From positions 186,001 to 250,000 of the forward strand of contig CALVIN010000001.1 in NCBI GenBank assembly GCA_944330115.1: a stretch of DNA of 64,000 nucleotides, read 5' to 3'. The position numbers were made by a program, and so were the translations under genes. The notes under the pieces are model-generated. The model worked only from the letters and a program-made list of their open reading frames with translations, made no database searches and was not told where the DNA came from. The stretch is from an uncultured Clostridia bacterium (GTDB lineage Bacteria; Bacillota; Clostridia; Christensenellales; Borkfalkiaceae). Positions 280-50,522 of the stretch are shown one piece after another; within the stretch, counting starts at the first letter, position 1; each line of letters opens with the position of its first letter.

Positions 280-620
280 GTGCGCAAGGCTGAATTTATT
301 TCAGCTGTAAGGTGCGCACCGAGTACCCGTTCATTGCCAAGCGGTGAAGCCCCTCCGTCGTGCTTCGTTGCACTTCGCACGCCACCTCCCGCTCAAAGGG
401 GATGTAAGCCGAAGGCGAAAGAGGGGTTGTTCTAAATAACTTACGTCGCAAGGCGGGTTTCCCGCCGCCGCAGGACTCAATTTGCGCCGGCAGGCGGCTC
501 ATCAAAGGGGGAATTGCCCCGATTATATGATATGTGAGCCCCTAAAATCGGGGCAAGGGGGAGCTGGCTCCCCAAAACTCACGGAAATTGTTCGGCGGCA
601 CCAGCCGAACAATTTCGTGA
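280..620 (+). repeat. Variable-stem structured repeat, copy 1 (full length)
   Basis: An intergenic element made of successive hairpins. It begins with a palindromic outer stem (GTGCGCA at 280-286 with TGCGCAC at 313-319) enclosing a GCTGAA/TTCAGC hairpin. Next come a stem GCCCCTC (349-355)/GAGGGGT (421-427), then GGCGGG-ttt-CCCGCC, then CAATTTGC, a small stem and GGCTCA. The 3' part has a stem at 514-523/547-556 with the loop motif GTGAGCCCC, a stem at 557-573, and a terminal stem at 579-620 opening with CTCACG and closing with CGTGA. Copies 2 (630-810) and 3 (50205-50522, minus) keep the linkers but change the stem sequences. Bases 202-279 before it hold nothing I recognise. Confidence 0.8.
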
Positions 621-629
621 ATTCAAATA

Positions 630-810
630 GCTTATGTCGCAAGGCGGGTTTCCCGCCGCCGCAGGACTCAATTTGCTGCGGTCAGCAGGCTCACTGGAGG
701 TGAATGGCGGCATTTCTAATAATCGTGGGCCCTAAAAAATGCCGCCAGAGGAACTTAGTTCCTCAAACTCACGAAATTTTTTGCGCGCGGCTCGCGCAAA
801 AAATTTGTGA
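630..810 (+). repeat. Variable-stem structured repeat, copy 2 (3' part only)
   Basis: This copy starts at the conserved linker TTATGTCGCAAGGCGGG and lacks the first ~160 bases of copies 1 and 3. Its small stem is GCTG-cggt-CAGC. The next stem is TGGCGGCATTT (705-715) with AAATGCCGCCA (737-747) around the loop motif GTGGGCCC. Then come GAGGAAC-tta-GTTCCTC (748-764) and a terminal stem at 769-810 opening with CTCACGAAA and closing with TTTGTGA. It ends 21 bases before the purD start codon, so the last hairpin would sit directly upstream of the purD ribosome-binding site if transcribed with purH. Confidence 0.78.
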
Positions 811-24180: not shown

Positions 24181-24222
24181 AAAAGGCACCGCCACGGCAA
24201 AAGCCGTGGCGGTGCCTTTTTG
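24181..24222 (+). terminator. Intrinsic terminator of tRNA-Ala
   Basis: An 18-bp perfect stem (24181-24198 with 24203-24220, loop AAAA) begins at the base after the tRNA CCA end and finishes in a T run. Its right half is the first part of the 147-bp tandem repeat. Confidence 0.85.
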
Positions 24223-24515
24223 TGATCATAACAGTAAACAGAAATGCCTCGTTCGGGCTTCCGCCATAGGCGGAGCCCTGACAGGGGCCCTTGAAAGGGG
24301 TGTGTCAGTATCTGCATTGTTAAACGATCTGCAATGTAAAACGGCAAAAGCCGTGGCGGTGCCTTTTTGTGATCATAACAGTAAACAGAAATGCCTCGTT
24401 CGGGCTTCCGCCATAGGCGGAGCCCTGACAGGGGCCCTTGAAAGGTGTGTGTCAGTATCTGCATTGTTAAACGATCTGCAATGTTAAAAGGCAAAAGCCG
24501 TGGCGGTGCCTTTTT
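24196..24515 (+). repeat. 147-bp structured tandem repeat, two units plus a partial third
   Basis: Unit 1 is 24196-24342, unit 2 is 24343-24489, and a 26-base start of a third is at 24490-24515. The two full units differ at only about three positions. Each begins with the right half of the tRNA terminator (GGCAAAAGCCGTGGCGGTGC) and can fold into three further hairpins: GGGCTTCCGCC-ata-GGCGGAGCCC, CTGACA/TGTCAG enclosing CCCTT-gaa-AGGG, and CATTG/CAATG. Because 147 is a multiple of three, long spurious reading frames cross the region on both strands. The remaining bases up to 24683 hold a promoter. Confidence 0.9.
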
Positions 24516-30998: not shown

Positions 30999-31020
30999 AA
31001 CTCAAAGTATCAAAAAGTAA

Positions 31021-31094
31021 CTGCGCAGTCGCGTTAAGTGGTGCCGATAGGACAGTCGGCGCACGAAAGGTAGAACCTGCGGTGGCTGTGCGCG
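31021..31094 (+). promoter_or_regulatory. Tetrahydrofolate (THF) riboswitch aptamer
   Basis: The stretch carries the THF aptamer landmarks in order: GCGTTAAGTG (31031-31040), a stem GCCGA (31043-31047)/TCGGC (31056-31060) enclosing TAGGACAG, CACGAA, a small stem AGGT-aga-ACCT and GCGGTG (31079-31084). It is closed by a stem GCGCAG (31023-31028)/CTGTGCGC (31086-31093). An intrinsic terminator follows at 31155 and folC at 31219, which fits folate-dependent premature termination of the folate operon. The assignment rests on recalled consensus, not a covariance-model run. Confidence 0.85.
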
Positions 31095-31154
31095 TCCCTC
31101 ATTTAAGTAAACTTGGGCAGCGCCGTTTTTCGGCCTGTTTTGCTCAGTTAAATT

Positions 31155-48665: not shown

Positions 48666-50198
48666 ATGCAGCGCGAAAGAGTTTTGGTACTCGACTTCGG
48701 CGGTCAGTACAATCAGTTGATAGCAAGGCGCGTGCGCGAGCAGAACGTATACTGCGACCTCGTGCCGTGCGACATGACTATCGAAAAGATAAAGCAATAT
48801 GCCCCCATAGGCATAATTTTTACGGGCGGCCCCAACAGCGTATACGACGAGGAGAGCCCCAAGGTGGATAAGGCCATATTCGGGCTCGGCATACCCGTGC
48901 TCGGCATCTGCTACGGCTGCCAGCTCACAGCATACCTTTTGGGCGGCGTGGTAGAGCGCGCCTCAACTTCTGAATACGGCAAGGCGGAGGTATACACGAA
49001 GAGCAGCCCTCTCACCGAGGGCGTGCCCGAAACTTCGGTGTGCTGGATGAGCCATACCGACAGAATAACCCGCCTTCCCGATGGCTTCGACATGATAGCC
49101 CACTCCGATAACTGCCCGTTCGCCGCGTTCGGAAACGAGGAGCGCAAGATATACGGCGTGCAGTTCCACCCCGAGGTGCAGCACACCGAATACGGCACCC
49201 GTATGCTTCGCAACTTTCTCTACAACGTGTGCGGCGCTCACGGCGACTGGACTATGTCTGGCTTCGTTTCCGAAAAGGTGAAGGAGCTCAAAGAGAAGAT
49301 AGGCGATAAAAAGGTGCTCTGCGCCATGTCGGGCGGCGTCGATTCGGCCGTTGCGGCAACGCTCATACACAGGGCGGTTGGCGATCAGCTCACCTGCGTG
49401 TTCGTCGATCACGGCCTCCTCAGAAAGTACGAGGCCGACGAGGTAATGAAGGTATTTAAAGACGGCCTCGGCATGAACCTCATAAAGGTGGACGACGGCG
49501 CCATATTCCTCGAAAAGCTCAAGGGCGTCTCCGATCCCGAAACAAAGCGCAAAATAATAGGCGAGCAGTTCATCCGCTCGTTTGAAAAGATATCCAAGGA
49601 GATAGGCGCAGTCGACTACCTCGTGCAGGGCACGATATATCCCGACGTCATTGAGAGCGGCAAGGGCAAGTCGGCCGTAATAAAGAGCCACCACAACGTG
49701 GGCGGCCTTCCCTCGGTAGTTGACTTCAAAGAGATAATCGAGCCCCTCCGCGACCTCTTCAAAGACGAGGTGCGCAAAGTCGGCTTCGAGCTCGGCCTGC
49801 CCAAAAACGTGGTAATGCGCCAGCCATTCCCCGGTCCCGGCCTTGCCATACGCATAATGGGCGAAGTCACCGAAGAAAAGCTGGAAACGCTGCGCGATTC
49901 CGACTATATCCTGCGCGAAGAGATTGCCAAGGCCGGCCTTGACGACAAGATATGGCAGTATTTCACCGTTATAACCAACAGCAAAACGGTGGGCGTACAG
50001 GGCGACTTCCGCACATACGAAAACGTCATCGCCATCCGTGCCGTGACCTCCGTCGACGCCATGACTGCCGACTGGGCGCGCATCCCCTACGACGTCTTGG
50101 AGATAATTTCCAACCGCATAGTAAACGAGGTAAAACACGCCAACAGGATAGTGTATGATATAACTTCCAAGCCCCCCGCAACCATAGAGTGGGAATAA
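48666..50198 (+). CDS. guaA: GMP synthase (glutamine-hydrolysing)
   Basis: GuaA aminates XMP to GMP. The 510-residue product has the N-terminal class I glutaminase ([20 protein letters not shown], nucleophile GICYGCQL near residue 80, [13 protein letters not shown]). The ATP-pyrophosphatase loop is [16 protein letters not shown] near 221, and the C-terminal dimerisation domain ends [13 protein letters not shown] precedes the ATG. A structured repeat on the opposite strand starts seven bases after the stop. Confidence 0.97.
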
Positions 50199-50204
50199 AA
50201 AGGT

Positions 50205-50522
50205 TCACAAAAATTTAGCTCTGGCCGAGAGCTAAATTTTTCGTGAGTTTGAGGGGCCAGCCCCTCTTTGCGCAATTGTAAAGGCCCACAAAGTGTATAA
50301 TTGCGCAAATTCACCCTTGTTGAGCCCGCTTTTGCGGCAAATTGTGTCGCGCCGGCGCAGGGAAACCCTGCTTGCGCAAGTCATTCACTTAGAACTTCAG
50401 CTTCGTACTATTGCGTTTATAAAACAGTTCACGCAAATCTTTTTGCTTCGCAAAAATCTTTGCCGTGAGGGTAGCGGTCGTAAAATGGCTTAACGGCTGA
50501 ACTAAATTCAGCCTGCCATTTT
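50205..50522 (-). repeat. Variable-stem structured repeat, copy 3 (full length, minus strand)
   Basis: Read on the minus strand from 50522, it has the same order of parts as copy 1 (280-620). An outer stem AAAATGGC/GCCATTTT encloses the GGCTGAA/TTCAGCC hairpin. Then come a long hairpin at 50429-50468, GCAGGG-ttt-CCCTGC, ACAATTTG, CCGC-aaaa-GCGG and GGCTCA. Next are a stem at 50267-50277/50299-50309 with the loop motif GTGGGCC, a stem at 50251-50266, and a terminal stem at 50205-50246 opening with CTCACGAAA. Stem sequences differ from copies 1 and 2 while pairing is kept. It fills most of the 366-base gap before the next gene. Confidence 0.8.

Follow-up and report, generated by a model that had tools for sequence, protein, structure and literature searches.

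The region between purH and purD in the genome of an uncultured Clostridia bacterium raises the question of what kind of repeat can change the letters of its stems and still keep them paired. We analyzed a stretch of 64,000 nucleotides containing this locus (the window) and found three full units of a noncoding repeat of ~190 bp, two on the plus strand and one on the minus strand, each running from TTC to GTGAA and comprising five hairpins, P1 to P5. With a probability of roughly one half, we consider the unit a piece of mobile DNA, small, nonautonomous, and broadly of the REP/MITE kind, that targets gene edges and depends on an enzyme acting in trans. On our best reading, two traits are unusual for that kind: the stems keep pairing as their letters change, and one end of the unit docks on gene edges.

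Copy 1 occupies positions 430 to 621 of the plus strand (TTCTA...GTGAA; model match at 434 to 621, 173.4 bits, E = 6.3e-51), its 5' end having been extended to TTCTA by comparison of close copies. Copy 2 follows in tandem at 622 to 811 of the same strand with a gap of 0 nt (model match at 625 to 811, 204.8 bits, E = 2.3e-60; 5' TTC assigned by reading), and copy 3 lies on the minus strand at 50204 to 50394 (model match at 50204 to 50389, 180.6 bits, E = 4.3e-53). The GTGAA of copy 2 ends 20 nt upstream of the purD ATG, and 5 nt separate the guaA stop codon (50196 to 50198) from the P5 hairpin end of copy 3 behind it. The gene names used here (purH, purD, guaA, lysS, prfA, and gltB) were taken from the preliminary description of this locus or from reading of the translations. 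That description had already reported two tandem copies and one minus-strand copy, with stems that we found as quoted; it had begun copy 1 at 280, extended the third copy to 50522, and placed the end of copy 2 21 bases before purD, so that the copies stand where they were placed and their borders required trimming.

Positions 280 to 429 hold other repeats outside the unit, namely a P1-like hairpin remnant (GTGCGC...GCGCAC, plus strand, 280 to 319), which by reading is like P1 of the scored copy L008, and a CCTCC/GGAGG module. The stretch from 50395 to 50522 looks like what is left of an older copy on the minus strand, with a P5-like hairpin at 50428 to 50469 and a P1-like hairpin of the GGCTGAA/TTCAGCC type at 50484 to 50522, both assigned by reading; a near-identical P5-like hairpin lies directly behind the guaA stop in the related genome G029 (L275), where a remnant similar to the P1-like one also occurs. 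Furthermore, window positions 348 to 428 contain a second repeat family of the form CCCCTCC...CCTCCC..GGGGAGG...GAGGGGTT, with nested hairpins and variable content, which is often found directly upstream of the element (L017, L019, L021, L024, and L025).

The fold was analyzed in two alignments, A1 with 33 own-genome copies and 47 pairs, for which 500 shuffles and slid partners served as baselines, and A2 with 35 matches from 30 loci in 30 genomes, including four weak ones (<60 bits). From 5' to 3', the unit consists of a short A+T-rich leader, P1, CAATTTG, P2, a CTCA linker, P3 with a long loop, P4, CTCACG, P5, and GTGAA. In copy 2 (plus strand), P1 lies at 643 to 657 (643 to 648 pairing with 652 to 657) and covaries in A1, where pairs 20/33 and 21/32 read C-G/G-C and A-U/C-G, with 16 copies each way (n = 33). 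P2 (676 to 688; 676 to 679 with 685 to 688) reads CTGC/GCAG here and CGCA/TGCG, TCGC/GCGA, CGCC/GGCG, or CCGC/GCGG in other copies, and its misregistration in the alignments leads to low P2 pair counts. The long stem P3 (705 to 747; 705 to 715 with 737 to 747) encloses a 21-nt loop containing GTGGGCCC and shows double-sided changes in 8 of 11 pairs, with 99.4% of cells paired in A1, and P4 (748 to 764; 748 to 754 with 758 to 764) shows such changes in 4 of 7 pairs. The terminal hairpin P5 (769 to 811), which has an unpaired G at 773 and forms the end that docks on gene edges, is changed on both sides in 10 of 17 pairs (A1). Its CAC/GTG foot also changes on both sides in A2, where TCAC/GTGA is replaced by TAAC/GTTA, TCGTC/GACGA, or TCTC/GAGA. 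Across the genus, 111 of 115 copies have TCACG followed by A or G at this foot; the G is unpaired by our reading of the fold and, likewise by reading, missing in some distant copies (L091, L094, and L102).

That the stems alter and yet pair, as first described, was borne out by the statistics. In A1, 96.3% of cells were paired versus 79.3% in shuffles, 28 of the 47 pairs carried changes on both sides, and 261 cells had changed on both sides versus 93.6 in shuffles. The covariation score was 0.445, compared with 0.157 after shuffling and at most 0.138 for slid partners, and none of the 500 shuffles reached the paired fraction, the number of double-sided cells, or the score. Further pair types showed no excess over shuffles in A1 (339 of 500 as high) and were equalled by 10 of 500 shuffles in A2. 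In A2, which was fitted to the model and hence biased toward it, 39 of 46 pairs showed double-sided changes and the covariation score was 0.533 (shuffled, 0.161; slid, at most 0.103), the shuffles ignoring the relatedness of the copies.

The double-sided changes, attributed at first to compensation within each stem, are real, but in part they probably go back to wholesale swaps of hairpins between copies. Stem modules are mixed among copies: a four-gamete check of the six A1 stem modules found every combination of two alleles in 13 of 15 module pairs, some of these cases resting on single copies, and the exceptions were P3-P4 and the two parts of P1. Whole hairpins were probably exchanged between copies, and such exchange would account for double changes that lack intermediates, although for a new stem allele to arise in the first place both arms must still change together. 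A pseudoknot between GGCTCAC and GTGRGCC was not supported, since among the 77 of 115 copies in which both motifs could be parsed, GGCTCAC changes to GCCTCAG or GCCTGAG while its partner commonly stays GTGGGC.

A mobile noncoding element had been suspected from the three copies in the window, and this gained support from the number and dispersal of further copies. Blast searches of the own genome gave 72 and 45 DNA matches with two queries, including partial and self-complementary hits. At least 57 distinct copies were present (71 model rows in the loci analyzed, 14 of them the same copy in overlapping loci), with a few more elsewhere; 13 distinct copies that were interrupted, weak, or at a contig edge were omitted from docking and identity counts, leaving 44. 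With up to 43 places scored per genome and E ≤ 1e-3, 34 of 37 genus members, among them the own genome, carried the element, compared with 0 of 24 genomes from other families of the order. A scan of the order at E ≤ 1e-5 was positive for 14 of 297 genomes, all of the same family of gut bacteria, with 8 places per genome scored and misses therefore likely. Among the genomes listed by name, 23 belonged to this family, with 3 of 5 genera positive, and 11 from other families gave no match; a further 263 genomes, not listed by name, gave none either.

Judged by PurD, which is 95 to 96% identical in the nearest named contigs, the genus is probably Candidatus Coproplasma, and the element was present in 5 of the 10 named genomes tried. 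Candidatus Coproplasma stercoripullorum (G088, L107) gave 72 matches, as did a chicken metagenome-assembled genome with a 70% identical PurD (G085, L116). Stems are different again in G085 and G090, where P4 is often enlarged. At L340, L345, L350, and L335 (G090) and L352, L355, and L368 (G085), P4 has become a much larger arm, with the rest of the fold kept. Tandem pairs or triples were present in several genomes. Copy 2 had no blastn match in plasmid and phage collections and a 23-base P5 pattern no exact match in viral contigs; on this basis residence on plasmids or phages was rejected.

Within the own genome, an identity of 95% or more was reached by 25 of 946 pairs of copies (best, 99.5%), and the 60-nt downstream flanks are 55% identical. 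In the best pair, L019 and L021, the flanks resemble each other no more than in other pairs. Such near-identity between copies in unrelated surroundings indicates recent spread, in this genome only, since among the fetched copies of G029, G015, and G013 no pair reached 95% identity. Most copies within one genome are moderately alike, with medians of 74 to 82% identity. Among twelve close copies, 61 of 66 pairs had a single long match in common. For 35 pairs it began no more than 11 nt from the model start, and for 26 further upstream, in shared neighboring modules; 44 matches ran to GTGAA(C), 3 slightly past it, and 14 stopped before P5. The unit is therefore about 191 bp long, and its ends, though common, are not universal.

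The unit is polar with respect to genes. Of the P5 ends that face a stop codon, 69 of 95 are no more than 10 nt away from it (18/23 in the own genome, 31/43 in eight relatives, and 20/29 in G085 and G090), versus 0 of 66 leader ends facing one (0/23, 0/29, and 0/14). Start distances are rougher than stop distances with our home-made gene caller, which misplaces some starts and whose codon usage was trained on the window; by this measure, P5 lies within 35 nt of the facing start for 12 of the 21 own copies, often immediately in front of the ribosome-binding site, and for 8 of 26 copies of the eight relatives, where several starts are miscalled. The leader end is at least 79 nt from the facing start throughout all three sets, which comprised, besides the own copies, 71 of 86 rows from the eight relatives (15 contig ends, inner tandem members, and interrupted or weak rows omitted) and all 41 rows from G085 and G090. 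At L076, whose gene reads as prfA, a unit is docked at both ends, and at L228 two units lie leader to leader, each with its P5 end on a gene. Intrinsic terminator function was rejected because, by reading, no consistent T run follows the GC stem.

Docking at the edges of translated regions in several species, together with conserved linkers and a covarying multihelix fold, would also suit a structured RNA under selection, either a cis-acting 3'-UTR or 5'-UTR element for mRNA protection, processing, or translation control or a large noncoding RNA family. We regard this as possible but clearly less probable than a mobile DNA element. It draws some support from E. coli, where some REPs within 15 nt of stops are reported to affect translation (PMC12306157). 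In the own genome, however, the two orientations are about equally frequent (gene start ahead of P5 in 21 copies, gene stop in 23), so that the neighboring transcript would carry either strand. G-U pairs are also scarce, making up 45 of 3,730 standard pairs in alignment A3 and 25 of 1,378 in A2 (1.2 to 1.8%) versus 32 of 373 (8.6%) in the acceptor and T stems of 32 tRNAs of the own genome; this is about five to seven times rarer, a difference whose size is rough given model-fitted alignments, related copies, and the misregistered P2. Since G-U is rare, pairing as DNA or on both strands is favored, and the active form is probably DNA. G-U cells exceed A-C cells about two to one (70 versus 34), which leaves room for sense-strand folding and leans toward it. 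Selection on folded RNA or single-stranded DNA had been proposed at the outset; the RNA half of that proposal is weakened by the rare G-U pairs, and single-stranded or cruciform DNA fits better.

A resident RNA element is further disfavored by its patchy presence behind the same genes. No match at E ≤ 1e-4 was found in 27 of 30 guaA loci and 26 of 30 lysS loci, a few of which end early at contig ends. Full units lie 0 to 8 nt behind the lysS stop in 4 loci (30 loci of 60 matching genomes) and equally close behind the guaA stop in 3 (30 loci of 55 matching genomes), and other loci carry terminators or other repeats at the same position. Another long repeat, of the ..TCGCAATAC..GTCGCGC...CTCGCGC..CGTCTTGCTCGC type, was observed at the same edges in relatives that have no element there, behind lysS in L307, L314, L315, L316, L318, and L319 and behind guaA in L276, L281, and L284.

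Gene conversion, by which old resident repeats at ancient sites would be homogenized through their conserved linkers, is in our view unlikely. It would account for the mixed stem modules and for units that occur at the same genes across species and are no more alike than random ones: 14 copy pairs that share a downstream gene between two species (certain copies being counted repeatedly; flanking proteins 71 to 100% identical) had a mean identity of 72.6%, compared with 72.8% for random cross-genome pairs (n = 1,141) and 75.8% for within-genome pairs. The patchy occupancy of the lysS and guaA edges, the older remnant adjoining the guaA copy, the abutting tandem units, and the moderate identity within genomes, a poor substrate for ordinary conversion, all speak against it. 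Behind guaA, the unit sits between the stop and the older remnant, and in G029, by reading, the remnant is directly behind the stop, which, like the low identity of units at the same gene in two species, suggests that the same edge was docked repeatedly; where several species have copies at one edge, long residence combined with gene conversion is another possible reading. The near-identical copies L019, before a start, and L021, directly behind a stop, are both docked, which places docking at the time of insertion or conversion and speaks against a gradual disappearance of spacer DNA as its origin. Docking probably reflects an insertion preference rather than selection on, or conversion of, older copies.

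We searched for an enzyme that might drive the element. At E ≤ 1e-3, Y1 transposases were present in 18 of 61 genomes and absent from the own genome (G000), G013, G015, and G029, and the reverse transcriptase profile RVT_1 was present in 25 of 61 genomes and absent from the own genome, G015, and G029. The element did not occur at any of 24 Y1 or RVT_1 loci examined (12 of them Y1). TnpB gave no hit above the cutoff in 12 genomes, with two weak partial hits in G085 and G088. The tyrosine recombinase profile PF00589 had no match in the copy-rich G088 (72 element matches; genome completeness not given) and one, not typed further, in the own genome. Based on these profile absences and the element-free loci, IS200/RAYT transposases, reverse transcriptases of the retroelement or group II intron type, and TnpB were rejected as drivers, and tyrosine recombinases appear unlikely ones. 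The unit may have terminal inverted repeats, as by reading its ends TTCTAAAAT and the reverse complement TTCACAAAT agree at 7 of 9 positions; inspection by eye revealed no target-site duplication in the flanks considered, which often consist of other repeats.

Known families were searched as well. In the window, only tRNA and a THF riboswitch reached the gathering threshold of Rfam release 15, both elsewhere than the element, and the copies themselves gave six and three hits far below gathering at E ≤ 10, none of them HEARO (RF02033); a known RNA family was therefore rejected, and the repeat matched no family already described there. The riboswitch lies at 31014 to 31103 (39.9 bits), upstream of an open reading frame at 31153. 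No published account of the element family was recognized in the full-text literature searched, a weak negative given that subscription papers mostly fall outside it. GTGA is the target sequence of HEARO elements, and our unit ends at GTGA. The unit also resembles guide or bridge RNAs in size and multihelix fold, which could suggest a decayed or miniature RNA-guided transposon (IscB/HEARO, TnpB, or IS110 type) without its protein; the absence of HEARO and other Rfam matches, the lack of TnpB above the cutoff in 12 genomes, and the low G-U content make this highly improbable. HEARO and IscB omega RNAs share with the element a structured, mobile-element-associated nature (PMC9755519), and the available portion of that source contained neither GTGA nor a statement on insertion sites.

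Several other systems invite comparison with the mobile DNA element proposed here. Yeast GC clusters, double-hairpin elements, and sponge RHE are mitochondrial hairpin elements, for which no enzyme is known. Integron attC sites conserve structure over sequence, carry unpaired hairpin bases, and lie beside stop codons, all as in the element; they differ in that we saw no cassette array at the element, which occurs in both gene orientations, and no tyrosine recombinase in G088. The mitochondrial elements are likewise described as potentially mobile intergenic hairpin repeats, but they have one to three hairpins, and sponge RHE conserves its stems and varies its loops, the reverse of the element (PMC2800124). 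The stem-loop families of Firmicutes include bcr1 of the Bacillus cereus group (PMC2267715), which is similar to the element in size class and stem-loops and, judging by the title under which it was first described, is mobile in character; in the passages of PMC2267715 consulted, neither docking on gene edges nor an extreme replacement of stems is mentioned. REPs are described as palindromes of 20 to 40 bp, most of them tagged GTAG or CGTC, with CGTC types lacking a dedicated transposase (PMC3733652). Like them, the element is high copy, noncoding, hairpin forming, and intergenic, with many copies near stops. It differs in its length of ~190 bp, its five hairpins, its single docked end, the replacement of whole stems, its occurrence in one clostridial family, and the absence of a Y1 transposase from the own genome. 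That it is an ordinary REP/BIME-type repeat, palindromic and close to stops as such repeats are (PMC3733652, PMC12306157), is hardly credible given these differences and the lack of a consistent tag: within the last 60 nt and an adjoining 8 nt of flank, only 2 of 115 copies contain GTAG and 9 contain CGTC.

For the favored mobile DNA element, we propose that the ~190-bp unit would fold as single-stranded or cruciform DNA into P1 to P5 and that a trans-acting enzyme would read this fold rather than the letters of the stems. P5 with its unpaired G is the probable recognition site. Copies would insert with the P5 end facing the closest gene and settle at that gene's edge, just behind the stop or just before the ribosome-binding site. 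New copies docking between a gene and older repeats would leave intergenic regions layered, sometimes as head-to-tail tandems; such layering seems probable, with guaA as the one clear case. Stems could diverge freely provided both arms change together, and whole hairpins could swap between copies. By analogy with E. coli REPs beside stop codons, a resident unit may act on mRNA ends and translation. A bolder version, that the element represents a new class of mobile DNA that reads the edge of a translated gene from the stop or the ribosome-binding side, docks one end there, and is recognized by a protein sensing hairpin shape, is doubtful at present.

If docking is an insertion property, the element is able to multiply within a compact genome while leaving the genes intact, and the place where translation ends must then be sensed by a protein or process of some kind. 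With its many compensated stem changes, the family offers a natural laboratory for DNA hairpin evolution. The hairpin arrays adjoin the housekeeping genes purD, guaA, lysS, and prfA and may affect their mRNA ends.

Further repeats were noted along the way. Directly repeated DNA with a ~147-bp period occupies window positions 24203 to 24510 and contains, behind the tRNA-Ala gene, a terminator-like stretch. A third repeat (CTGCCGTTTCCC...GGCAGAGTGTCGTCGC) lies inside the unit in L015 and beside it in L006, L011, and L012. Units interrupted by other repeats were found in L013/L041, L015/L044, and L033 and could reveal the order of insertion.
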